Part shown: piece after piece, positions 1-7,711 of the stretch
Numbering within the stretch: position 1 is the stretch's first letter
Layout: every line of letters starts with the position of its first letter
Source: a virus
Direction: 5' to 3' (one strand)
IMG/VR virus record: IMGVR_UViG_3300033571_007483
Location: 1-23,236 of that record
DNA: 23,236 nucleotides
Notes under the pieces: generated by a model
Database searches by the model: none
Seen by the model: only the letters and a program-made list of their open reading frames with translations
What the model was told of the DNA's origin: nothing
Translations under genes and position numbers: made by a program

Positions 1-768
1 TCAATTACCTTTCAAAACTTCACTCGGGACAAAAAACTCTGCATACTTCTCGAACGAAAACTCAACCATTTCTTCCGGCATGTTCAAACGGTTCTTCGCG
101 CGGACTCCCGCCGTTGGCTGAGTCCTGACAAAACGCTCGCTGCCACCCGCCGCGATGTTTCGAGTGCGATTAAATCCGGTGTCTTCTTTGACTGCGTAAG
201 TCCGGAACGATCCGAAGAAAACTTCCTGACACCAATCGCAAAGCAGATCACGAGCGAACTCACAGACGGACGGCTCCCACCGCTCATAGGACGGTGCATC
301 TGGCGGAGTGATCTTCACGGCTTCACTGTGTGCCAGCAGAATGATTCCAAGCCCGCGTTCGGTGTGCAGCCAATCCAGTTGAAACTTGATCTTGTCCCAC
401 ATGGCCTCAATGAACTTGTTGCCCTTGCCATAGCTAAATTTATCGTCGGCCATGCTTTCGACGTTCTTCTCTTTGCAGATCTGCTTTTCGATGATCCTCT
501 GCAAAGCGTCGATCGTATCAATGGCAATCCAGCGATAAGGGAACTCACCTTTTGCGGCCGCTGTGTCGCAATGCAACCAAAACTCCTGCCACTCGTCCCA
601 CGTTCGAATCGGGGGCGTCTTATCCATGTCAACGTCTCGATCGTCTTCGAGATTCGCCAACAGTGCCCCACCAAATGCCTGCGAGGCAAAAGTTGTCTTT
701 CCAATAAAATTCGTCCCATGAAACAGAACGCGACGTGGTCCGCCCTGTTTACCTTTCAAGATCTTCAC
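1..768 (-). CDS. Sak4-like (AAA_24) recombination ATPase
   Basis: RecA-fold ATPase of the phage nucleotide-binding (AAA_24/Sak4) family, which acts with phage SSB in single-strand annealing recombination and replication. The Walker A motif is GTNFIGKT (about residues 18-25 from the chosen start), Walker B is WIAIDT (about 80-85), and a sensor-like strand IILLAHS follows (about 142-148). I choose the GTG at 768 because it forms a GTGA overlap with the stop of the HNH gene and has GGAG about 9 bases upstream; the protein then begins KILKGKQGG, as family members do. This gives about 255 residues. A GTG at 795 would add nine residues but has no convincing ribosome site. The TGA stop lies at bases 1-3, so the gene is complete. 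It is the last gene visible in the early operon and is preceded by a nuclease gene, a usual phage recombination pairing. The family call is strong; the biochemical role is inferred from the family. Confidence 0.85.
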   Translation of the reverse strand: MKILKGKQGGPRRVLFHGTNFIGKTTFASQAFGGALLANLEDDRDVDMDKTPPIRTWDEWQEFWLHCDTAAAKGEFPYRWIAIDTIDALQRIIEKQICKEKNVESMADDKFSYGKGNKFIEAMWDKIKFQLDWLHTERGLGIILLAHSEAVKITPPDAPSYERWEPSVCEFARDLLCDWCQEVFFGSFRTYAVKEDTGFNRTRNIAAGGSERFVRTQPTAGVRAKNRLNMPEEMVEFSFEKYAEFFVPSEVLKGN

Positions 769-1142
769 TGCTCTTTTCTCCGCTCTAAATGACACTTAGA
801 ACACAACACTCTCAACCCATCCGATTCGCAGAACAGCCGATCAGCGAACACGCTCAGATCGGCAAATGATTTCAGTGAGCCACAGGGCTCGATGTGATCG
901 ACTTCAACTTCCTTGCGTGCGAACCATTGGTCGCAACGTTCGCATAGAAACTCCCATTTCAGTCGTTTGTTGTCGCTCTGGCTTTTGCGTTTCACTCGTT
1001 CCAGTGCATGACGAACTAACGGAGGCCATCGACGTGACAACTGACGAAGACCGGAGCGGATAAATCCCCAAAACGCAGCTTCAGTCCACTCACCACCGGC
1101 GCGAGTTCGGGGGACTCTGTCAGTCTTTGCTTTGCGGCTCAT
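765..1142 (-). CDS. HNH endonuclease
   Basis: Small HNH-type nuclease, about 125 residues. A CERC zinc knuckle (about residues 67-70) is followed by EVDHIEPCGS, which holds the catalytic DH pair (about 82-83), and by GLRVLCSKCH with the second Cys pair and the terminal metal-binding His (about 114-118). The usual Asn in the DNLxxLCxxCH pattern reads D-G here, which is tolerated in related proteins. I place the start at 1142, where ATGA overlaps the stop of the upstream gene; a longer reading to 1193 would overlap that gene by 55 bases. Directly upstream of the Sak4-like gene, it may act in recombination intermediate processing, as NinG-type proteins do, but a role in packaging or as a homing nuclease cannot be excluded. 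Confidence 0.8.
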   Translation of the reverse strand: MSRKAKTDRVPRTRAGGEWTEAAFWGFIRSGLRQLSRRWPPLVRHALERVKRKSQSDNKRLKWEFLCERCDQWFARKEVEVDHIEPCGSLKSFADLSVFADRLFCESDGLRVLCSKCHLERRKEQ

Positions 1143-1375
1143 CCCTGCCCCCTCAAAACGCCGTGACCGCCTGGCAACATCCGCGTCGAACACTCACGAA
1201 TCTGTGACGGCCGATACAAGCCTTTGTTCTCTGGAAGATCAGGCCGTTCCATGCGGATCGATTCCGCCAGCCCGATCGTTGTTTCCGTGCCCCAAATCTC
1301 TTCGAGCGATGGATCTCTGGTCATTGGCTTGCGATCGGTAGGCATGTGCAGCCGCTTAGATTTTCTTTTTGCCAT
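1139..1375 (-). CDS. Hypothetical early protein (78 aa)
   Basis: I do not recognise this family. The protein is very basic at the N terminus (MAKRKSKRL) and then mixed polar, with [11 protein letters not shown] and a C-terminal glycine-rich tail. I use the ATG at 1375, which overlaps the end of csrA by 20 bases and has GGAGG about 12 bases upstream inside csrA; an upstream start at 1420 would lie almost wholly inside csrA. Its stop overlaps the HNH start as ATGA. Its position between csrA and the HNH gene suggests it is translated from the same message. The basic N terminus could bind nucleic acid, but that is speculation. Confidence 0.6.
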
Positions 1376-1535
1376 CTCTCGCAATCGCCTCCGAAACTTC
1401 CCTGCGATGAACGGACACATCTTTTGGGGCTTCGATTCCGAGGCGAACCTTGTCGCCTCGTATCTCGATAATCTTTACCACGACTGAATCACCGATCAGG
1501 ATGTCTTCTTCAGTTTTCCGGCTAAGCACTAGCAT
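1356..1535 (-). CDS. csrA: Phage-borne CsrA/RsmA RNA-binding regulator
   Basis: A complete 59-residue CsrA. It starts [16 protein letters not shown] and contains [17 protein letters not shown], matching the family from end to end at its usual length. The RNA-contacting residues of CsrA are present: L4 and R6 in the first strand, and V42, H43 and R44 in the last strand before the C-terminal helix. CsrA dimers bind GGA motifs, typically in hairpin loops or over ribosome sites, and block translation or alter message stability. The ATG at 1535 has GGAG 8 bases upstream, itself a GGA, so autorepression is possible. The gene lies inside the phage early operon, with phage genes on both sides and the same strand. 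Upstream is a large hairpin array with T-tracts. Identification is firm; the targets are unknown. Confidence 0.93.
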
Positions 1536-1563
1536 TATTCGCTCCGTCTAATTAAGGAAAAAA

Positions 1564-1621
1564 CCTGCGAACGGCTTTGACGAACTCTTGACCACGCCAC
1601 CGCTGGCGAGCCGTTCGCAGG
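1564..1621 (-). terminator. Hairpin with T-tract in the csrA leader (terminator or attenuator)
   Basis: A perfect 13-base inverted repeat (CCTGCGAACGGCT at 1564-1576 and its complement at 1609-1621) encloses 32 bases that contain a further 5-base hairpin (CGCCA/TGGCG, 1595-1608). Read on the minus strand, the stem is followed at once by six T residues, then 24 bases further by the csrA ATG. This is the form of an intrinsic terminator with an unusually large, branched head. Lying in the csrA leader, it could act as an attenuator. Readthrough would be needed for csrA unless an unseen promoter lies beyond it. Confidence 0.6.
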
Positions 1622-1630
1622 AGTAAAAAT

Positions 1631-1700
1631 CAGAGCCTGACCCGCCTTCTTGGCTGCGGGGGCCAGCCGTCAGAATCCAATCTGATTGGCCAGGCTCTGA
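1631..1700 (-). terminator. Branched hairpin with T-tract and a GGA loop
   Basis: A closing stem of about 13 pairs (CAGAGCCTG and its complement, extended through one G-T pair and two G-C pairs) is followed on the minus strand by ATTTTT. Inside it are two small hairpins: TCAGA-TTGGAT-TCTGA (1670-1685), with GGA in a six-base loop, and GGCTG/CAGCC. The first looks like a CsrA binding hairpin. The element is the middle of three hairpin-plus-TTTTACTCC units between the membrane-protein gene and csrA. It could be a terminator, a structured leader or a repetitive element of REP type. Confidence 0.5.
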
Positions 1701-1711
1701 GGGAGTAAAAT

Positions 1712-1735
1712 CCGGTGAACCCTTGCTCTCGCCGG
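1712..1735 (-). terminator. Weak hairpin after the 46-aa gene
   Basis: CCGG arms with a short mismatched extension lie immediately after the TAA of the membrane-protein gene and are followed on the minus strand by ATTTTACTCC. It is the first and weakest of three hairpin/T-tract units in this intergenic stretch. It is probably the terminator of the upstream early genes. Confidence 0.4.
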
Positions 1736-1876
1736 TTAGTACGTTGGCGGGTAGTTGTCTCTCGCCCACTTGTTTCCTCGCTTGATCTGGCTTCGCTCGT
1801 CAGCGAGCTGCGATGATCCGGCCGCAAACCATGCCAGGACGATCAGTAACGCTGTTGCGATGATTTCATTGAGCAT
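1736..1876 (-). CDS. Small single-pass membrane protein (46 aa)
   Basis: The N-terminal segment IIATALLIVLAWFAAG forms one membrane helix, followed by a charged tail (LADERSQIKRGNKWARDN). I choose the ATG at 1876 because AAAGGAG sits 8 bases upstream; a longer open frame to 2056 runs inside the neighbouring gene and is not needed. It overlaps the upstream zinc-protein gene by 11 bases. The topology would suit a phage membrane protein such as a superinfection-exclusion peptide or a small holin, but nothing in the sequence decides. It is the last gene before the hairpin array. Confidence 0.6.
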   Translation of the reverse strand: MLNEIIATALLIVLAWFAAGSSQLADERSQIKRGNKWARDNYPPTY

Positions 1877-2168
1877 TTGCCAGTCTCCTTTGCTTTGCCG
1901 CCTCGACATGAGCGTCCTGAGCTTTTTTGATTCGCTCCCGAGCCATCTCACGACGCAGGCAGCCGCATGATTTCGTTCCGCCACTCTGAATGCGCGATCG
2001 ATGGGTGTCAACAATCTCACCGCATGAACAACGGCACCGCCAAACCTGATACCCACCAGCGTTGTCCCACTGCGATACGGTAAACATGTAACGGATCACC
2101 GTGAGCCGCGACCCTGCTGGCGGGATCGGTGGTGTTCGTTTTTGCGGTCTGCCGATGTTTGCTGTCAT
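1866..2168 (-). CDS. Small zinc-binding phage protein (100 aa)
   Basis: The central segment WRCRCSCGEIVDTHRSRIQ followed by GGTKSCGC is the small Cys-rich domain found in many phage proteins, often next to HNH or AP2 DNA-binding domains (C-x-C-x-C, then SCGC). Here it stands alone, followed by a charged helical tail (REMARERIKKAQDAHVEAAKQR). The ATG at 2168 overlaps the upstream stop as ATGA. It is probably a DNA-binding or accessory early protein; no catalytic motif is visible. Confidence 0.7.
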   Translation of the reverse strand: MTANIGRPQKRTPPIPPAGSRLTVIRYMFTVSQWDNAGGYQVWRCRCSCGEIVDTHRSRIQSGGTKSCGCLRREMARERIKKAQDAHVEAAKQRRLANAQ

Positions 2169-2494
2169 GTCTGCTCCTTTGCTCTAAACGTCATCGCTGA
2201 TTTACCAGTCACTTCGCACTTGCGATCACCGCATTCTTTTACGAGATCCATCCGGACTAGTTCACGCACGCGCTTGCGGAACGTTTCGATGTTCGCGACG
2301 TATTGCTTAGCCGCTTCTTGTGCAGCTTCGTTTGCCGTGATTGGCTTTGGTGCGTCCTTAATGGCTTGAAAAACAAAGTTCTGTAACGTGTTGATTCGCA
2401 GCTCTGTTTCGACTGCTGATTTCTGGCTGGTTATTGGGTCTGATTTGCGGGAGATGTTTGCGGGGGCGTCGAAACCGAGGGTTTTCTGTATCAC
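2165..2494 (-). CDS. Winged-helix-like early protein (109 aa)
   Basis: After a flexible N terminus with the common phage motif SDPITSQKSA (about residues 18-27), a helical section (LQNFVFQAIKDAP, then ITANEAAQEAAKQY, then FRKRVRELVRMDLV) and a basic strand pair give the outline of a winged helix-turn-helix. The start is a GTG at 2494 in a GTGA overlap with the upstream gene, with a very strong ribosome site (AGGGGAGG, 5 bases upstream). Related phage proteins are usually annotated as hypothetical; replication-initiation or regulatory roles are possible. Confidence 0.65.
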   Translation of the reverse strand: MIQKTLGFDAPANISRKSDPITSQKSAVETELRINTLQNFVFQAIKDAPKPITANEAAQEAAKQYVANIETFRKRVRELVRMDLVKECGDRKCEVTGKSAMTFRAKEQT

Positions 2495-2841
2495 GCTTTC
2501 CTCCCCTTAAAATACTTCGCCGCGATCCGCCACAGGACACCCTGCCTCGTCTCGCCGGTCTTCGCTGATTCATCCGCTAGTGGCTTTTGCAGTTCCGGCG
2601 GAACACGCAGCAGCAGTTGAGGATTGCCTTTTATCTTTTTTGTCACTTCAGGTTCTCCAGTTCCTTCTTGAGCCGCAAGACTTCGGCGTGGTTGCCGTCG
2701 TGCTGAGCGTAGATGATGCGGGCTTGCAGGTTGCGGATTGTTGCGAGTGTTGGCATTTGCGGTGAGCCTTGAAAAGTCGCCAGTCCGGACTTTACGACCG
2801 AGAGGAGCAGGACGCCCTGTCTTTGGCTTGTCGTCGCTCAT
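2491..2841 (-). CDS. Ribbon-helix-helix protein with GRPAPLGRK N terminus
   Basis: The open frame is 116 residues from an ATG at 2841 (TAATG overlap with the upstream stop). The N terminus has KTGRPAPLGRK, also found in the 59-aa gene at 4170-4349. The C terminus (about residues 66-116) is an Arc-like ribbon-helix-helix: a strand LLLRVPPELQ, then two helices to KYFKGRKA. The linker between them is Pro/Arg/Gln-rich with AT-ending codons, and another frame there (2643-2756) has more coding-like codon use. An alternative is therefore a separate 51-aa protein starting at the GTG at 2646, which has GGAG about 9 bases upstream and a GTGA overlap with that smaller ORF. The DNA-binding class is fairly safe; the true start is not. 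Confidence 0.55.
   Translation of the reverse strand: MSDDKPKTGRPAPLGRKVRTGDFSRLTANANTRNNPQPASPHHLRSARRQPRRSLAAQEGTGEPEVTKKIKGNPQLLLRVPPELQKPLADESAKTGETRQGVLWRIAAKYFKGRKA
2643..2756 (-). CDS. Possible 37-aa coiled-coil protein nested in another frame
   Basis: It starts MPTLATIRNLQARIIYAQ and ends LRLKKELENLK, a clean amphipathic helix. Third codon positions are mostly G or C, as in the confirmed genes, whereas the overlapping frame has many A and T third positions. Its TGA forms a GTGA overlap with the alternative start of the ribbon-helix-helix protein. The ribosome site is weak (AAGG about 11 bases upstream). Function is unknown. Confidence 0.45.
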   Translation of the reverse strand: MPTLATIRNLQARIIYAQHDGNHAEVLRLKKELENLK

Positions 2842-3068
2842 TATGAAAACCACCTTTGTAAAAACACTTCAACGGCTTCTTCCTGCTCATCCGTGTCTCT
2901 GCATGGCAGGCGATTCAAGATCGCTTTTGCCGACTCTTCTGTGATGTCCTTGCATTCACCCCGGCAAAGTTCATTCGCGATGATGCTCAACGTTTTTGCG
3001 ATTCCGTGATGTGCGTTCGCTAAATCTACGATTGCATTGTGAAACCTGATCTTCTCAGCGTGTTGCAT
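2841..3068 (-). CDS. Hypothetical helical early protein (75 aa)
   Basis: I do not recognise this family. The sequence is mostly predicted helix (KIRFHNAIVDLANAHHGIA, then EESAKAILNRL, then EEAVEVFLQRWF), acidic towards the C terminus, with two Cys (CRGEC) that may or may not bind metal. The ATG at 3068 has GGGGAGG about 11 bases upstream. The stop overlaps the next start by one base (TAATG), implying coupling with the ribbon-helix-helix gene. Confidence 0.6.
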   Translation of the reverse strand: MQHAEKIRFHNAIVDLANAHHGIAKTLSIIANELCRGECKDITEESAKAILNRLPCRDTDEQEEAVEVFLQRWFS

Positions 3069-3074
3069 AGTTGG

Positions 3075-3461
3075 CTATGCCTCCCCATAACACGCATCAT
3101 TCAGCCCGTCGATGTATCCGCCAAGACGCTCAGCATTCGGCCCCTCGACTGGCGTTCTGTGTAAAACTCGCAAGCCGCTAATTGCCACCTCGACATCATT
3201 GTGGCCCAGCTTAAAGACAAGGTACTCCGCAACACGCTCTGCAATTGCTGCGTTCGGTGCCGCGTACTGGTATGGTAGCGTTCTTTCTGGATTCAGAATG
3301 TATCGCTGCCGCTGCGTGGTCTCAGCCAATAGGTCTGTCAAAATATTTCGCATTGGTCCACACCCCTCGCAAAAGCCAGCCTCCCATTCTTCGAGAGGCT
3401 GGCGACATTGTTGACAACTCAGATTTGATTCCCTGACACCATTTCCATCAGTTCGCCGCAT
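3075..3461 (-). CDS. Zinc-ribbon early protein (128 aa)
   Basis: The N-terminal part has paired cysteines CQQC and CEGC separated by about 13 residues, a zinc ribbon. The C-terminal half is a helical and strand domain (AAIAERVAEYLVFKLG, then GLRVLHRTP) that I do not recognise. The start is uncertain: the ATG at 3461 overlaps the upstream gene by 43 bases and lacks a clear ribosome site, while a downstream ATG at 3356 would remove the zinc ribbon, which argues for an earlier start. A CTG at 3422 beside the upstream stop is also possible. Confidence 0.6.
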   Translation of the reverse strand: MRRTDGNGVRESNLSCQQCRQPLEEWEAGFCEGCGPMRNILTDLLAETTQRQRYILNPERTLPYQYAAPNAAIAERVAEYLVFKLGHNDVEVAISGLRVLHRTPVEGPNAERLGGYIDGLNDACYGEA

Positions 3462-3631
3462 GTCTTGGCGACCCACTTTGATTCGTTGTTTCTGAACAGT
3501 TCCCATTCTGACTTCCTGCCTTTTCTGTCGCATCGGCCGATTCGGTATTCTCCAGCGAACCACAGCCCTTCTGACTCTGAACATTCCCACTTCACATTTC
3601 CGACTGTTCGTGTTTTCGTTGTTGTTGCCAT
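3419..3631 (-). CDS. Hypothetical protein behind the second early promoter (70 aa)
   Basis: Small, Trp- and charge-rich protein (VKWECSESEGLWFAGEYRIG, then SEWELFRNN) that looks like a compact beta-hairpin domain; no family recognised. The ATG at 3631 has AAGGA 9 bases upstream within an 18-base leader identical to that of the gene at 4346-4543. It is the first gene after the TTGACG/TATCAT promoter, so it is probably expressed early and strongly. Confidence 0.65.
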   Translation of the reverse strand: MATTTKTRTVGNVKWECSESEGLWFAGEYRIGRCDRKGRKSEWELFRNNESKWVAKTCGELMEMVSGNQI

Positions 3632-3646
3632 CGTTCTTTTCCTTGC
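3629..3646 (-). repeat. Shared 18-base leader, copy 1
   Basis: GCAAGGAAAAGAACGATG on the minus strand, containing the ribosome site and start codon, is identical to 4541-4558. See the finding on duplicated promoter cassettes. Confidence 0.8.
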
Positions 3647-3671
3647 CAGTGGTTTGCGTCTCGGTGCGGGC

Positions 3672-3699
3672 ATGATATCACTATCGGAATTGGCGTCAA
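3672..3699 (-). promoter_or_regulatory. Early promoter 2 (sigma70-type)
   Basis: On the minus strand, a -35 box TTGACG (3699-3694) and a -10 box TATCAT (3677-3672) are separated by 16 bases. Transcription would begin near 3665 and give a leader of about 34 bases before the ATG at 3631. One operator-like palindrome overlaps the -10 and the other lies just upstream of the -35. Confidence 0.65.
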
Positions 3700-3715
3700 T
3701 GGATGGTGATATCAT
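3672..3715. promoter_or_regulatory. Twin palindromic operators around early promoter 2
   Basis: TGATATCA occurs twice, at 3673-3680 and 3707-3714, exactly 34 bases apart (about three helical turns). Each is a perfect palindrome, and together they form a perfect 10-base inverted repeat (ATGATATCAC/GTGATATCAT) centred on the -35 box. This is what paired repressor dimers would bind. The regulator is not identified; the ribbon-helix-helix proteins encoded nearby are candidates. Confidence 0.55.
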
Positions 3716-3728
3716 TTTGCAGGATTGC

Positions 3729-3741
3729 GGAAAAGATTTTT
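3729..3741. repeat. Shared upstream box, copy 1
   Basis: GGAAAAGATTTTT on the plus strand, identical to 4633-4645 and preceded in both by a similar CARGATTG. It lies about 29 bases upstream of the -35 of early promoter 2. It could be an UP element or an activator site. Confidence 0.6.
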
Positions 3742-3820
3742 TTTTGCGTGGGTTTTGTGGGGTATTGCATATGCGCATACCGCCACTTTATCCAGTCCTG
3801 TATTACAGCGACTGTCGGAT

Positions 3821-4028
3821 TCAGCCTGTCTTGGTGTTTCGCTCAACAGTGACCGAGGCCTCTGGACTGTCTAGGTTGTCAGTTTGGACATTGCCTAGAA
3901 ATTTTGGCTCACGCAGTTTGCGACGAATTTCACAGCGGCGGTATTTCTGTGTCCAGTTACCACCAAGACATGACTTTTCTGCACTCACCAAACGCCGACA
4001 GCCAGGGCATTGCTGCTCTGGCTGTCAT
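3821..4028 (-). pseudogene. Small zinc-ribbon gene broken by a one-base frameshift
   Basis: The frame ending at 3821 reads EQQCPGCRRLVSAEKSC, then GGNWTQKYRRCE and a polar tail, a zinc-ribbon outline with Cys at about 7, 10, 20 and 32. No start codon precedes the CPGC in that frame before a stop. An ATG at 4028 lies one base out of register: dropping one base (near 4022) gives MTPEQQCPGC and a 68-residue protein. The break could be a real mutation, a sequencing error or a programmed shift; it lies in a strong hairpin (3997-4026). If intact it would start at the GTG at 3988, which loses the first Cys pair. No good ribosome site is visible. Confidence 0.4.
3997..4026. repeat. Perfect 9-base inverted repeat
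   Basis: GACAGCCAG and its complement flank a 12-base loop. It has no T-tract on either strand, so it is not a typical terminator. It coincides with the frameshift site of the broken zinc-ribbon gene. Confidence 0.6.
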
Positions 4029-4038
4029 TGTGGATTGT

Positions 4039-4114
4039 GCGACTACGAATCGCGGTGCATCAGTGTAAGGGAGATGCGGCCCAATAATCAATGGTCAATG
4101 CGTTTCGTAGTCGC
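4039..4114. repeat. 76-base element closed by a perfect 11-base inverted repeat
   Basis: GCGACTACGAA at 4039-4049 and its complement at 4104-4114 enclose 54 bases with an inner GCATC/GATGC hairpin. It lies in the gap between the 59-aa gene and the broken zinc-ribbon gene (4029-4169), where I see no convincing ORF. It could be a small structured RNA, an attachment or replication site, or a decayed tRNA-like sequence. Confidence 0.5.
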
Positions 4115-4169
4115 TACTCGGTTTCCACGCCGAACAGCAAACGCATCTTGACACGGATTGCCAAATCTG

Positions 4170-4349
4170 TCAATGAGACTTTACCCACGCCCGAAACTCT
4201 TTCGACTTACGGCACAGCTCATTCAGCACCGCAATCCCTCCATTGGCTCGACAGAACGCCTCAACCTGCGGATCAAGGCGAACCGTGCAGGTTTTCTTTC
4301 GACCTAGCGGGGCTGGTCTCCCAGCCCCTTCGCGTTTACCGCCGATCAT
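4170..4349 (-). CDS. GRPAPLGRK/ribbon-helix-helix-like protein (59 aa)
   Basis: Complete small gene: it starts MIGGKREGAGRPAPLGRKK, a basic Gly/Arg/Pro N terminus common in small phage and plasmid proteins, followed by TCTVRLDPQVEAFCRANGG and a helix, resembling an MetJ/Arc-type strand and helices. The ATG at 4349 overlaps the upstream TGA as ATGA. The N-terminal motif is shared with the protein at 2491-2841, so the two may be paralogues. It is likely a small DNA-binding protein; which site it binds is unknown, but the operator palindromes next to the early promoters are obvious candidates. A 6-base inverted repeat (TTGACA/TGTCAA, 4148-4173) overlaps its stop. Confidence 0.75.
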   Translation of the reverse strand: MIGGKREGAGRPAPLGRKKTCTVRLDPQVEAFCRANGGIAVLNELCRKSKEFRAWVKSH

Positions 4350-4543
4350 GCCTGTGCTCGCAGTCCGTCGTAAAGGTCGCCAATCATGGCATCCACATTG
4401 TTTTTCCCCAGAACAAACTCCATAGCCAGCTTCACGTCCATTCCGGCTTCAACCAGAGTCTTGATGCAAGCCGTGAAAACCAGATTCTTGTCAGTCGTTC
4501 CGATCATTGCGGCTACTGCGTTGAGCTGTTCTGTTGTGATCAT
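4346..4543 (-). CDS. First gene of the early operon, hypothetical (65 aa)
   Basis: Mostly helical protein (TEQLNAVAAMIG, then KNLVFTACIKTLVEAG, then VKLAMEFVLG), no family recognised. I use the ATG at 4543, which has AAGGA 9 bases upstream in the shared 18-base leader and lies about 37 bases downstream of the predicted start of early promoter 1; a longer frame to 4615 would begin upstream of the transcript. It is coupled by ATGA to the 59-aa DNA-binding-like gene. Confidence 0.65.
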   Translation of the reverse strand: MITTEQLNAVAAMIGTTDKNLVFTACIKTLVEAGMDVKLAMEFVLGKNNVDAMIGDLYDGLRAQA

Positions 4544-4558
4544 CGTTCTTTTCCTTGC
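4541..4558 (-). repeat. Shared 18-base leader, copy 2
   Basis: Identical to 3629-3646, again placing the ribosome site and start codon of the first gene behind an early promoter. Confidence 0.8.
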
Positions 4559-4587
4559 TTGTGTTTGTGTTGCGTTCGACTGATGGA

Positions 4588-4615
4588 ATATTACCATGAT
4601 CGGCTGATTGTGCAA
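4588..4615 (-). promoter_or_regulatory. Early promoter 1 (sigma70-type)
   Basis: On the minus strand, -35 TTGCAC (4615-4610) and -10 TAATAT (4593-4588) are separated by 16 bases. The -35 lies inside an operator-like palindrome. The leader to the ATG at 4543 is about 37 bases. Confidence 0.6.
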
Positions 4616-4625
4616 TACACAATCA
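4605..4625. promoter_or_regulatory. Operator-like palindrome over early promoter 1
   Basis: TGATTGTG-CAATA-CACAATCA is a perfect 8-base inverted repeat with a 5-base spacer that covers the -35 box, the classic place for a repressor. Its sequence differs from TGATATCA at promoter 2, so the two promoters probably answer to different regulators. Confidence 0.6.
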
Positions 4626-4632
4626 CAAGATT

Positions 4633-4645
4633 GGAAAAGATTTTT
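4633..4645. repeat. Shared upstream box, copy 2
   Basis: Same 13 bases as 3729-3741, about 17 bases upstream of the -35 of early promoter 1. Confidence 0.6.
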
Positions 4646-4670
4646 GGAAATACTTCAACACGGTTAGAAT
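4643..4670 (+). promoter_or_regulatory. Possible plus-strand promoter for the small cassette
   Basis: -10-like TAGAAT at 4665-4670, with TTTGGA 16 bases upstream (4643-4648). It is back to back with early promoter 1. The -35 is poor, so this is tentative. Confidence 0.3.
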
Positions 4671-4738
4671 GACCGCAGAACGGCTCGCGGCTGGCTAGTC
4701 ATTTGACATTTCGCCCGTCTGCGTCAATCTTGTTGACC

Positions 4739-4930
4739 ATGAACCCGTCCCGCCGAATCGCCCGTGATCTCAAAGCCTGCATTGTCGCAGGCCCGATTCT
4801 GCTGCTGATGATGTGCACCAACGAAGCGAGCCGTACCCGATCGGGTGCGGCCCTCCCATGCTTCGGGTTTGACCAGAGCTATTTATCCGCTCGGTCGGTA
4901 ACTATGACGGACACAATTATTCTCGCTTGA
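4739..4930 (+). CDS. Possible small exported or membrane protein (63 aa)
   Basis: A basic N terminus (MNPSRRIARDLK) is followed by a hydrophobic run IVAGPILLLMMC, with a Cys placed like a weak lipobox, then a polar tail. Third positions are G/C-rich, as in real genes here, but no ribosome site is seen upstream of the ATG at 4739, and it contains a strong hairpin (4830-4851). It may be a moron gene together with the next one, or chance. Confidence 0.3.
   Translation: MNPSRRIARDLKACIVAGPILLLMMCTNEASRTRSGAALPCFGFDQSYLSARSVTMTDTIILA
4830..4851. repeat. Strong hairpin around an ACCCGATCGGGT palindrome
   Basis: A 9-pair stem (one T-G pair) around GATC. There is no T-tract. It could stop or stabilise the late transcript that arrives from the tail genes on the minus strand, or be part of the plus-strand ORF only. 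Confidence 0.4.
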
Positions 4931-4961
4931 CTTCCGGAACAGAATTTCCGACCCTGGGTGT

Positions 4962-5228
4962 ATGAAACTTTTCGCCCAAATGCTGCTTTGTGTTTTCGTC
5001 GGCCTGTCGATCGGCTCCGCGATATCGTGGGAGCGGCATCGATCTGAACTGGTCGAAGTAAAGGTCATCCGCGTCGTGAAGAATCGCGAGGAGTCAACGA
5101 TCAGGTTTGCCAATAACTCACTTCCGCACACCGTTGTTGAGTACAGGTATATGCGGCAATGGGCTGTTCCAGGTATCGCCGGTGAAGTTGGTGAAGCCAT
5201 TTACGAACTGCCTCCAGCACAGCCTTAG
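4962..5228 (+). CDS. Small exported/membrane-anchored protein on the opposite strand (88 aa)
   Basis: It starts MKLFAQMLLCVFVGLSIGSA, a signal peptide or membrane anchor, then has a charged soluble part with beta character (VEVKVIRVVKN, then TVVEYRYMRQW). It is the only well-supported plus-strand gene in the window; its end overlaps the convergent tail gene by 4 bases. Codon use is coding-like; the ribosome site is weak (GGGTG). Placement between late and early genes, on the other strand, is typical of phage morons, which often act in lysogenic conversion or superinfection exclusion. No family recognised; a spanin-like or other lysis role cannot be excluded. Confidence 0.5.
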   Translation: MKLFAQMLLCVFVGLSIGSAISWERHRSELVEVKVIRVVKNREESTIRFANNSLPHTVVEYRYMRQWAVPGIAGEVGEAIYELPPAQP

Positions 5229-7711
5229 AGTTCACTATCAACCAATGATCCGTACGCATAAACAAAATCACCTTGCAACCAAGCATAAATCGGATCAGAC
5301 ACGGTAAATGCGTCTTTAGTTCCAAATGGTCGAGACCAGAGTTTTGTGGCATCAGTAACGCTGTAGGCACAAATTCCTTCAGGCGTCGTAAACGGAGTAA
5401 TGTTCTGCATTTCGATTTCTACGCCGCCTGTCAACACGCCATCGTTGCGATAATCAAACCAGAATCTTGGGATGTATCCACTGCCAGGCGTAAACCCTGC
5501 GTCAGTGTAGAACCGAAACAATGGGTTGAATTCGATCAACGCAACTGGATCATTTTCTACTGGTGTCGGATCAAGCCCAAAGTCAATAAGAGCAACGTTA
5601 CCTGCGCCAAGCAAATCGTTGAGTGCGGTTTCGATTTCTGTTTCCGTTGCGTACCAATCAATCCACGCTGTGTAATTTACTCCCGGCATTCTTTCTATTT
5701 TGAAACGAAACTGCTGCGGCTCTGCTGCCCGCGAATTATAGGGCGTTATGAATCTGAAGAACGCTTCGTGATCTGAGGACGATCCGATCGTATCGTAGTA
5801 CCAGCCACCATCAATTTTCCCCGGAGACTTTGCAAACACCGCAGTACCGTCGGACGCGAACGCTGTAGCCCCGATTCGTAGGTAGTCGCCGTCGGCCCAT
5901 GTGTCTCGACCGCGATCATTGTATGTGGCGATTGGGCGTCCATTGATGGAACTAAGGTAAGTTAGCTCAAAACCCCACGTTAGATATTTTGACGCATCGC
6001 TATCAAACATGGCAGAACTCTGCCAGTTATCTGGCACTGTCAGCGTGCCATAGTGCGTCATAACTTCTGTTCTGGCTGCGTCTGCTACTGAGATCTTTGC
6101 TGCGGTCCTATCCCTCACGCCATCGAATCGCTTCGCTCCAATCGGGCACAGGATGTACCCAGATTCACACTGGATTATTTGCGGCATCAGCATTGTTGCA
6201 TTGCAATACACCTGCCAATTAAATGTCCATTCACCGCTGGCGATTGTCCAGGCTTCGACCACGCTTTCTTTAATTGCGTCTCCGCTATTTCTGCCGATCG
6301 GAGTGACGATTACTGAGTTATCTGGGCCCGATCCAATAGCCATAATTCCGAGAACATCCAGCCCAGTCACTGTCGGAAGTGCTGCCGATTCCTCGAACAT
6401 TTTTGCGGGCGTACGAACAGCAGAATATCCAAATCGGTAGCCGACTGATGATGTGATTCCGCCAGTGCCGGTATCGTAAACTATGGCAGCCGATTTTGTG
6501 TTGCGGGTATCTGTGGTCGGATCTCCGCCTGCCGTCAGGTCCACAGTAACAGGGTCAAAACCAAGTGCTGTAGAATACAGAATTGTCAATTCATTGCCTA
6601 TTACAAAGACGCTATCAGGTATCCCGGAGGCGATTGACATCCAGCCTGTATCTGCTTGGTCTAGTGAAAAGGACTCGATTGCAGCTTCAAGGGCTGCCAA
6701 GAACACGGAGGGAATATCTGTAGTGGATACATACGTAAAGTCTGGACCATCGATGAGAGAGAATGTGAATGTAGCTCCTTCCGCAATGGCCGAAACGTTT
6801 AACGTAAGGTAGTCGATATCCGTTGCCCAGTTTCCAGTCGTCGAACTCCAGGTTGTCGTGCCACCAACCGCTGACTGCGTGCTTGTCATAGCAATGCCGG
6901 AAATATCTCCGGACGATGCCGACCATGTTGCCTCTACCGTGATCGGCAGCAAAGGCCACGGGCCGCCAGTTACAGTTGCTGCCGTGCAATCTGACGTTGC
7001 CTCAAACAGTGTTTCAACTTCAGCCGCTGTCGAGTCGTATGGAATCGTGATCGTTTCGTTTGATGTTCGCGTCTTCAAATAAACGTTGCCGCCGATAAGT
7101 GCGTGAGCGTGCAGAATGTACGACTTTGTTGCTCCGTTGCTGGTAAACGACAGGAACTCAATAAAGGGGATTCGCTCCCCGACGATGACGTAATCCCCGC
7201 CACTCAAGGCTGCCGCGTTTGTCATTCTCAGCCCATTCACCAGCCCGACAGACGTTCCGGTGATCGTATCGCAGAACAGCCCTGTCAGCGTTGCTGATTC
7301 GATTGTTGTACCGTCCAGTGAGTCCAACTTAAAAACCGACAAAGGTTCGCAGACGTTTGCAACGAGCGTTGCTGTGTTTCGATTGCCACACGCCGCGTAC
7401 GTTGGATAATCTCCCGCCGCGATCGCGTATTTGTCCAGCGTCGCCGACAGGTTTGGGACAACTCCAGAAATTGCATCAACGCCGTAGTGATGACGCCAAA
7501 GCGAGCCCGGCCCGTACTCCCAGACAGTTGTGCCGTCTGTTTTGTCGATGCACTTGATTGTAATAGCCTGCAGGCGCGGCCCGCGTTGAGAACCAACACC
7601 GCAGTGAATCGTCTTGAACTCCCGCCGCGTTGCGTGCCTGCGTGATGTCGCTTGCCGTTCCGGGCTGCCAGTGCATTGCCCTGCGATGATGCGAAACTCA
7701 CGCCGCGTCAT
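5225..7711 (-). CDS. Large tail tip/receptor-binding-region protein (828 aa)
   Basis: Last gene of the late operon and the second-largest product, so probably a distal tail protein. It is beta-rich throughout. Two or three degenerate modules are visible (about residues 195-275, 300-395 and 665-740), each with a strand, a helix of the AAEVETLFEA or TETEIETAL kind and a closing strand; the first has TGGPWPLLPITVEAT, a motif common in planctomycete surface and phage proteins. Near both ends are PQQ-propeller-like segments (KTDGTTVWEYG about 57-67; DATKLWSRPFG near the C terminus), so a propeller closed by N- and C-terminal strands is possible. The N terminus repeats TRREF twice (residues 2-6 and 28-32). 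The start overlaps the upstream stop as ATGA. Host receptor binding is inferred from position only. Confidence 0.65.
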   Translation of the reverse strand: MTRREFRIIAGQCTGSPERQATSRRHATRREFKTIHCGVGSQRGPRLQAITIKCIDKTDGTTVWEYGPGSLWRHHYGVDAISGVVPNLSATLDKYAIAAGDYPTYAACGNRNTATLVANVCEPLSVFKLDSLDGTTIESATLTGLFCDTITGTSVGLVNGLRMTNAAALSGGDYVIVGERIPFIEFLSFTSNGATKSYILHAHALIGGNVYLKTRTSNETITIPYDSTAAEVETLFEATSDCTAATVTGGPWPLLPITVEATWSASSGDISGIAMTSTQSAVGGTTTWSSTTGNWATDIDYLTLNVSAIAEGATFTFSLIDGPDFTYVSTTDIPSVFLAALEAAIESFSLDQADTGWMSIASGIPDSVFVIGNELTILYSTALGFDPVTVDLTAGGDPTTDTRNTKSAAIVYDTGTGGITSSVGYRFGYSAVRTPAKMFEESAALPTVTGLDVLGIMAIGSGPDNSVIVTPIGRNSGDAIKESVVEAWTIASGEWTFNWQVYCNATMLMPQIIQCESGYILCPIGAKRFDGVRDRTAAKISVADAARTEVMTHYGTLTVPDNWQSSAMFDSDASKYLTWGFELTYLSSINGRPIATYNDRGRDTWADGDYLRIGATAFASDGTAVFAKSPGKIDGGWYYDTIGSSSDHEAFFRFITPYNSRAAEPQQFRFKIERMPGVNYTAWIDWYATETEIETALNDLLGAGNVALIDFGLDPTPVENDPVALIEFNPLFRFYTDAGFTPGSGYIPRFWFDYRNDGVLTGGVEIEMQNITPFTTPEGICAYSVTDATKLWSRPFGTKDAFTVSDPIYAWLQGDFVYAYGSLVDSEL

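Follow-up and report, generated by a model that had tools for sequence, protein, structure and literature searches.

CsrA-family genes carried by phages are, by themselves, an already known kind of finding. According to a 2020 survey, 30 of 2517 phage genomes contain csrA (PMC7366521). Deletion of Bci, the CsrA of the P. aeruginosa phage AUS531phi, reduced infection and altered quorum-sensing genes as well as motility and biofilm (PMC7546807). Going by the available text of these two papers, one a survey and the other reporting a csrA gene deleted and phenotyped, the earlier note on the present DNA was fair in saying that few phage-borne CsrA proteins have been studied; phage-borne global regulators are known and hardly tested. 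In CsrA, residues L4 and R44 are important for RNA contact, in strands 1 and 5, and the RNA CsrB carries about 18 GGA elements (both PMC7652899). Stem-loops have been described at shuffled genes of T4-type phages (PeSL, as cited in PMC4503421), and HK022 put is a phage leader RNA acting on the transcription of downstream genes (PMC9378689).

Here we analyse a csrA locus in a virus record of 23,236 bases, the whole of which is called the window. Its protein shares the full-length domain and the key residues L4 and R44 of the CsrA/RsmA/RsmE family (PF02599), but its gene is phage-borne, and several relatives of the locus encode proteins with inserts, changed cores and a common C-terminal tail like RIGERLPGELMRRK. 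Like Bci and the phage and plasmid alleles of the 2020 survey, the gene is a tailed-phage csrA, whereas its product is less than 60% identical to each of 80 matching annotated phage records. The available text on Bci and on the surveyed alleles mentions neither a structured leader nor allele swapping, both of which are features of the window group. As in the PeSL cassettes, so far as the citing text describes them, stem-loops lie here at an edge of shuffled genes (the exchange between loci L013 and L197, below), but here they accompany one gene family and covary. The window leader shares with CsrB/CsrC-type decoys the arrangement of a multi-hairpin RNA beside a Csr-family gene, but lacks their enrichment in GGA; to HK022 put, as far as the available text goes, the likeness would be in possible role only.

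What is new relative to known phage CsrA is the csrA-linked structured leader together with the swapping of csrA types, and among the open-licence papers surveyed we found none that describes a covarying leader linked to csrA or an exchange of csrA cassettes. A swapped csrA behind conserved hairpins suggests a controlled, evolving viral handle on messenger RNA. The locus offers natural phage pairs that are identical on both flanks and differ in the CsrA carried, and a conserved csrA-linked RNA leader that can be assayed as a control element. If the mechanism proposed below is true, it would show how a global regulator of host type is gated by a phage, and would allow one to ask why CsrA is exchanged so readily in hosts, probably planctomycetes, that can have many csrA-family genes.

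The csrA gene and its neighbours

Features of the locus are collected in Table 1.

Table 1. Features of the csrA locus, in window coordinates
Feature	Position	Strand	Basis and remarks
Sak4-like ssDNA annealing/AAA protein	1..795	-	complete; PHROG 124, E 2.7e-29; Pfam AAA_24, E 3.1e-25
HNH endonuclease	765..1193	-	PHROG 1985, E 1.4e-22; start GTG 1193 or ATG 1142
orfX	1139..1375	-	starts inside the csrA 3' end, 20-nt overlap
csrA	1356..1535	-	59 aa, complete; ATG at 1535, stop codon 1358..1356
csrA Shine-Dalgarno region	1540..1547	-	ACGGAGCG; from sequence; one GGA inside
Hairpin mD	1564..1621	-	13-bp stem CCTGCGAACGGCT/AGCCGTTCGCAGG plus inner helix; then TTTTTT at 1563..1558
Hairpin mC	1630..1700	-	outer arms TCAGAGCCTGGCC/GGTCAGGCTCTGA, two inner helices; from folding and sequence
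Hairpin mA	1710..1738	-	small, TAACCGGCGAGAGCAAGGGTTCACCGGAT; starts at the stop codon of tmpep, the gene upstream
tmpep	1736..1876	-	46 aa, upstream of the leader; one hydrophobic segment by eye (MLNEIIATALLIVLAWFAAG...)
Promoter-like site	3672..3699	-	TTGACG-16-TATCAT with GATAGTGATATCAT; csrA strand; conserved upstream of csrA

The earlier note called a complete 59-residue CsrA with intact RNA-contacting residues, and gave its coordinates exactly. The gene is on the minus strand; plus-strand translation of the same positions is not a CsrA. Pfam CsrA (PF02599) matches the product over profile positions 1-52 of 53 at E 8.7e-24 and 83.7 bits, above the curated cut-off of 27 bits, and agrees with PHROG 9500 'CsrA-like regulator' (E 1.1e-19) and with solved CsrA chains (e.g. 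1y00 at E 1.6e-12). The residues singled out, L4, R6 and V42-H43-R44, are all present, and L2, L4, R6, G33, A36, R44 and E46 are invariant in a 13-row CsrA alignment. From its sequence, identification of the protein as a CsrA is far beyond chance, and with a full-length domain the gene is intact rather than an inactive fragment of a host gene. Nor is the window a piece of chromosome with a host csrA in non-phage surroundings: it is a virus record with terminase, portal, protease/capsid and tape-measure genes (PHROG) on the csrA strand.

Where the earlier note placed csrA among phage early genes on the same strand, the strand and the phage genes stand, while 'early' is a presumption from gene content. 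The HNH and Sak4-like neighbours are as it described them; the stop codon of the Sak4-like gene lies at the edge of the window. No Pfam family was found for orfX or for tmpep, the latter having tblastn matches at the equivalent place in relatives. With window proteins as queries, the order in relatives is p2165 - p1866 - tmpep - leader - csrA - orfX - (nuclease) - Sak4, varied by losses, inserts and contig ends. The check proposed in the earlier note, whether csrA stays next to the HNH and Sak4 genes, had an uneven outcome: csrA precedes orfX and, given enough DNA, Sak4, while HNH is inconstant. The nuclease slot between orfX and Sak4 holds what we take, by eye, to be a RusA-like gene in L209 and L211 and a DUF1064-like gene in L009.

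Farther upstream in the window, a 59-aa protein encoded at 4170-4349 on the minus strand has a weak BrnA-antitoxin match (E 0.01, below cut-off), and an 88-aa ORF at 4962-5228 on the plus strand, opposite to csrA, has an N-terminal hydrophobic stretch and no Pfam match.

csrA types and cassette exchange

We analysed the best 80 of 95 loci in viral contigs that match csrA. Among these 80, L002-L014 carry a csrA 88-100% identical to the window gene, and L003 is virtually the same phage (7532 of 7535 overlapping positions match). The gene keeps its place in relatives yet falls into at least eight divergent types, six representatives of which are 20-68% identical to one another. Classes were assigned at 53 loci: T1, the window type (14 loci), T2 (24), T2b (2), T3 (9) and T4 (4). 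Further types occur at L253/L264/L266, L262, L261 and L270, and L237, from a different phage, was left out of the class comparison as well as of the leader GGA and promoter-like site counts. Because many loci are near copies, the 53 amounting to 40 distinct 300-nt upstream stretches, locus counts are not counts of independent events.

Between classes, median identity is 41% for csrA (53 loci), 82% for orfX (48 loci) and 97% for Sak4 (32 loci), against 94%, 90% and 98%, respectively, within classes. The upstream genes tmpep and p1866 are variable too, with between-class medians of 59% and 49%. The 20 related contigs that were searched whole have exactly one csrA each.

Exchange is seen directly in a comparison of L013 with L197. 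The two are identical over 1477 bp as far as the foot of mD, some 22 nt short of csrA; csrA (39% identical) and all of orfX except its last codons are replaced; 364 identical bp then resume at those last codons, beyond which identity is mostly 88-100%. csrA-orfX is therefore an exchangeable cassette, with its left edge at the foot of mD and its right edge at the orfX 3' end. In L197 and L208 the ORF at +266..503 from the csrA start has a wholly different orfX N-terminal part and keeps the end STRMLPxGxGVLRGQG.

In a tree of 172 short CsrA proteins, T1 and T3 fall near host genes and T2 and T4 fall apart on a long branch, so the csrA types of the locus are probably not one lineage. Since the tree has few columns, meeting long branches and weak support, and is poorly resolved, we use it for this statement only.

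A leader of covarying hairpins

The 231-nt leader folds more stably than its shuffled versions (z -2.86; 1 of 200 shuffles was equally stable). Relatives combine its modules differently; two further ones, mB and mE, also occur, and some leaders contain tRNA-like folds. mD is present in 50 of 54 loci; L009, L211, L212 and L237 are without it in the 330 nt upstream, and in L211 and L212 mC occupies its place.

For mD we aligned 25 variants (family A2: 29 minus four nested or trimmed duplicates), and for mC 15 variants. Paired cells make up 324 of 325 in the mD stem, compared with 29-43% in slid controls, and 99.1% in mC, figures inflated by the fact that the sequences were picked for pairing with G-U allowed. 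Changes on both sides of a pair matter more than percent paired, because of that picking. Such changes affect 7 of 13 pairs in mD (mean of 4.3 in shuffles, 4 of 500 of which reached it) and 5 of 22 in mC (mean of 2.1, with 3 of 500 doing so). Pair types in mD number 13, no more than the 13.2 in shuffles. mA occurs in 44 of 53 loci, in 12 variants whose inner stem covaries; one pair of this stem is AT, CG, GC or TA across variants, one variant has an A-C mismatch, and a longer mA pattern occurs in 30 viral contigs.

Non-Watson-Crick cells in mC and mD together comprise 23 G-U, 2 A-C and 2 other non-pairs. This excess of G-U over A-C, which the picking may itself have promoted, favours pairing in the csrA-sense RNA over a palindrome acting at the DNA level, as far as sequence can tell.

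Nothing in the window matched Rfam at E up to 1, nor did L163, L188, L167 or L165 at E up to 5. A search of L226, L220 and L202 gave one match, tRNA (RF00005) in the csrA leader of L226 at 5708-5775, at 48.7 bits and above the gathering score; ARAGORN does not call it. A different tRNA-like cloverleaf, judged by eye and from one fold, is present in the leaders of L202, L203 and L205 and has a TGCAATT loop.

Linkage of the hairpins to csrA

A scan of viral contigs for mD arms that did not require csrA, using an exact pattern of the commonest arms, returned 51 contigs, all of which (51/51) are csrA contigs; other mD variants have CCCTGTG, CCAGTGAG and CCCGTGAG arms. A CsrA-family ORF lies 26-113 nt downstream of the arms in 48 of them; the remaining three, L163, L258 and L250, are pieces of the csrA-bearing contigs of L014, L226 and L009. 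An exact-pattern search with the mC arms of the window, allowing a gap of 25-50 between them, had no matches.

Hairpin model R1 was searched against the 20 whole contigs, which had been chosen for holding csrA and many of which contributed sequences to the model. It matched 18, with one or two copies each. In 17 of these the match lies immediately upstream of csrA; in G002 (L009) another gene intervenes and the distance to csrA is about 0.6 kb. The two that it misses, G008 and G009 (L211 and L212), have mC in that place. R1 had no other place in the 20 contigs at E up to 0.01; as palindromes, these sites also give lower scores on the opposite strand. Model R2, for mC, has matches in 9 of 33 sources, on the csrA strand and just upstream of csrA; it also has weaker opposite-strand matches, two of which lie elsewhere, in L201 (E 0.016) and L192 (E 0.097). 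The idea that mD is a general terminator used throughout the phage is unsupported, mD being solely upstream of csrA in the 20 contigs.

Promoter-like site and proposed mechanism

In 32 of 53 loci a single copy of the promoter-like site lies upstream of csrA, with 0 on the opposite strand and none downstream in the DNA available. Where 6 kb of upstream DNA is available it is present in 26 of 33 loci (window included) and absent in 7. A scan of window positions 1-5300 for promoters of the sigma-70 type gave it as the sole match, about 2.1 kb upstream; in PeSL cassettes an early promoter would be expected next to the stem-loop.

mD resembles a terminator in its G+C-rich 13-bp stem followed directly by TTTTTT, but differs from the textbook form in that its outer arms enclose 32 nt, including an inner helix, in place of a short loop. 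A generic terminator scan with loops of 3-8 allowed did not list it. Because a strong stem and T-run are joined to a long loop, mD is better described, on its sequence, as terminator-like than as a proven terminator.

In most loci 26-40 nt separate the last mD from the csrA start, and there is therefore little room for another promoter plus a Shine-Dalgarno sequence. This gap and the promoter-like site upstream on the csrA strand make read-through of the leader likely, so csrA is probably transcribed through the leader, and attenuation would be the simplest use of the hairpins.

Our best explanation, to which we give an even chance, is that the phage encodes an mRNA-binding CsrA behind an attenuator-like leader, exchanged as a csrA-orfX cassette. 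By analogy with the family, the protein would be a functional RNA-binding dimer used by the phage during infection, and would bind GGA-type sites on host and/or phage mRNAs. The operon would probably be read from the upstream promoter-like site, and transcription would cross mA, mC and mD before csrA. The hairpins would then attenuate transcription or terminate it conditionally, restricting or timing the expression of csrA, orfX, the nuclease and Sak4. Cassette exchange would put different CsrA types behind one kind of leader, and the phage CsrA need not itself bind that leader, since GGA is depleted in leaders.

Host and cellular relatives

The nearest cellular csrA genes are mostly from Planctomycetota (75 of the best 80 of 488 loci, by record titles), with proteins 58-76% identical to the window CsrA among those 80; the phage host is for this reason probably a planctomycete. 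In ten planctomycete genomes picked through their csrA matches, CsrA-family matches number 6-13 in nine (those behind L142, L152, L141, L083, L084, L087, L105, L144 and L138) and 1 in the other, a few of the matches being short or just below cut-off. In a sample of the phylum, any csrA-family match was found in 18 of 44 genomes and nine matches in 2 of 44, the 44 including one of the ten. The 6-13 CsrA-family genes per genome are an unusual multiplicity.

A bolder reading, which we offer tentatively and with the balance somewhat against it, is that the leader represents a new class of phage cis-regulatory RNA: an attenuator of interchangeable covarying hairpins that in some phages includes a tRNA-like domain and that serves a hot-swapped CsrA cassette alone. 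Phages would thereby contest mRNA control in hosts that can carry 6-13 CsrA-family genes, exchanging CsrA types while keeping the RNA switch.

No close prophage was found through Sak4, relatives of which occur in 28 of 294 planctomycete genomes (E up to 1e-20) at no more than 36% identity. The leader hairpin was also considered as a host element and rejected; the same 294 genomes gave one marginal match under stricter filters (32.5 bits, E 9.4e-4).

Alternative explanations

The hairpins might mainly be recombination borders for the exchange of neighbouring genes, like the PeSL cassettes of T4-type phages, with any effect on csrA expression secondary. Exchange edges at the foot of mD and at the orfX 3' end would fit such a role, as would the adjoining Sak4-type recombinase and the DNA inserted beside modules, an AP2/HNH-like gene in L009 (by eye) and about 0.8 kb between mA and mE in L010. 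Recombination, however, requires sequence identity, whereas here the sequence changes while pairing persists; on the csrA strand G-U outnumbers A-C; and mD, over the contigs searched, stands solely at csrA and is absent at other variable genes of the same phages. We consider this role unlikely. Another way for the leader to work would be after transcription, with RNase III sites or mRNA end caps splitting off the csrA message and setting its half-life. That would suit the long stable stems kept in the sense RNA, and the tRNA-like modules of some leaders, one of them a real RF00005 match, could be cut by RNase P. It leaves unexplained, however, the T-run directly after mD, which is near constant (the first listing of mD did not require it, and requiring it lost 0 of 50 mD loci), and we think it improbable that the leader acts in this way.

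The GGA immediately upstream of the csrA start, seen in the window as well as the other loci inspected, and the GGA in the inner loop of the window mC, might mark the leader as a target of the phage CsrA, either a CsrB-like decoy or an autoregulatory operator. Yet across 33 distinct leaders GGA was observed 94 times against 120.5 expected, several mC variants lack the loop GGA, and one kind of leader serves very different CsrA types. The sponge form is ruled out because GGA motifs are depleted (the final 220 nt of the window leader contain 3), and an autoregulatory hairpin at the Shine-Dalgarno sequence was rejected, small hairpins there being weak or absent; a leader that is a CsrA target in either form is very doubtful. 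It may also be that csrA is an ordinary host-derived auxiliary gene retuning metabolism or motility, the leader and the swapping having no special meaning. The mostly planctomycete best matches among cellular genes speak for this, as do the phage CsrA proteins already known, of which Bci alters motility and biofilm in the available text (PMC7366521, PMC7546807). Against it, the types at the locus do not appear to be one lineage in the weakly supported tree, where T1 and T3 group close to host genes but T2 and T4 are set apart, and the exact exchange of the cassette and the csrA-linked leader suggest selection on the unit, so that we find an ordinary auxiliary gene distinctly unlikely.

Unusual csrA genes

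Rare start codons are seen at some loci, an apparent ATT in L009 (6001-6003) and ATC in L213-L219, a few bases after GGAGGTGTG; they may keep expression of csrA low. In L204 (csrA at 3558) a T2 csrA is cut to 49 residues by an early stop codon, and the leader is intact.
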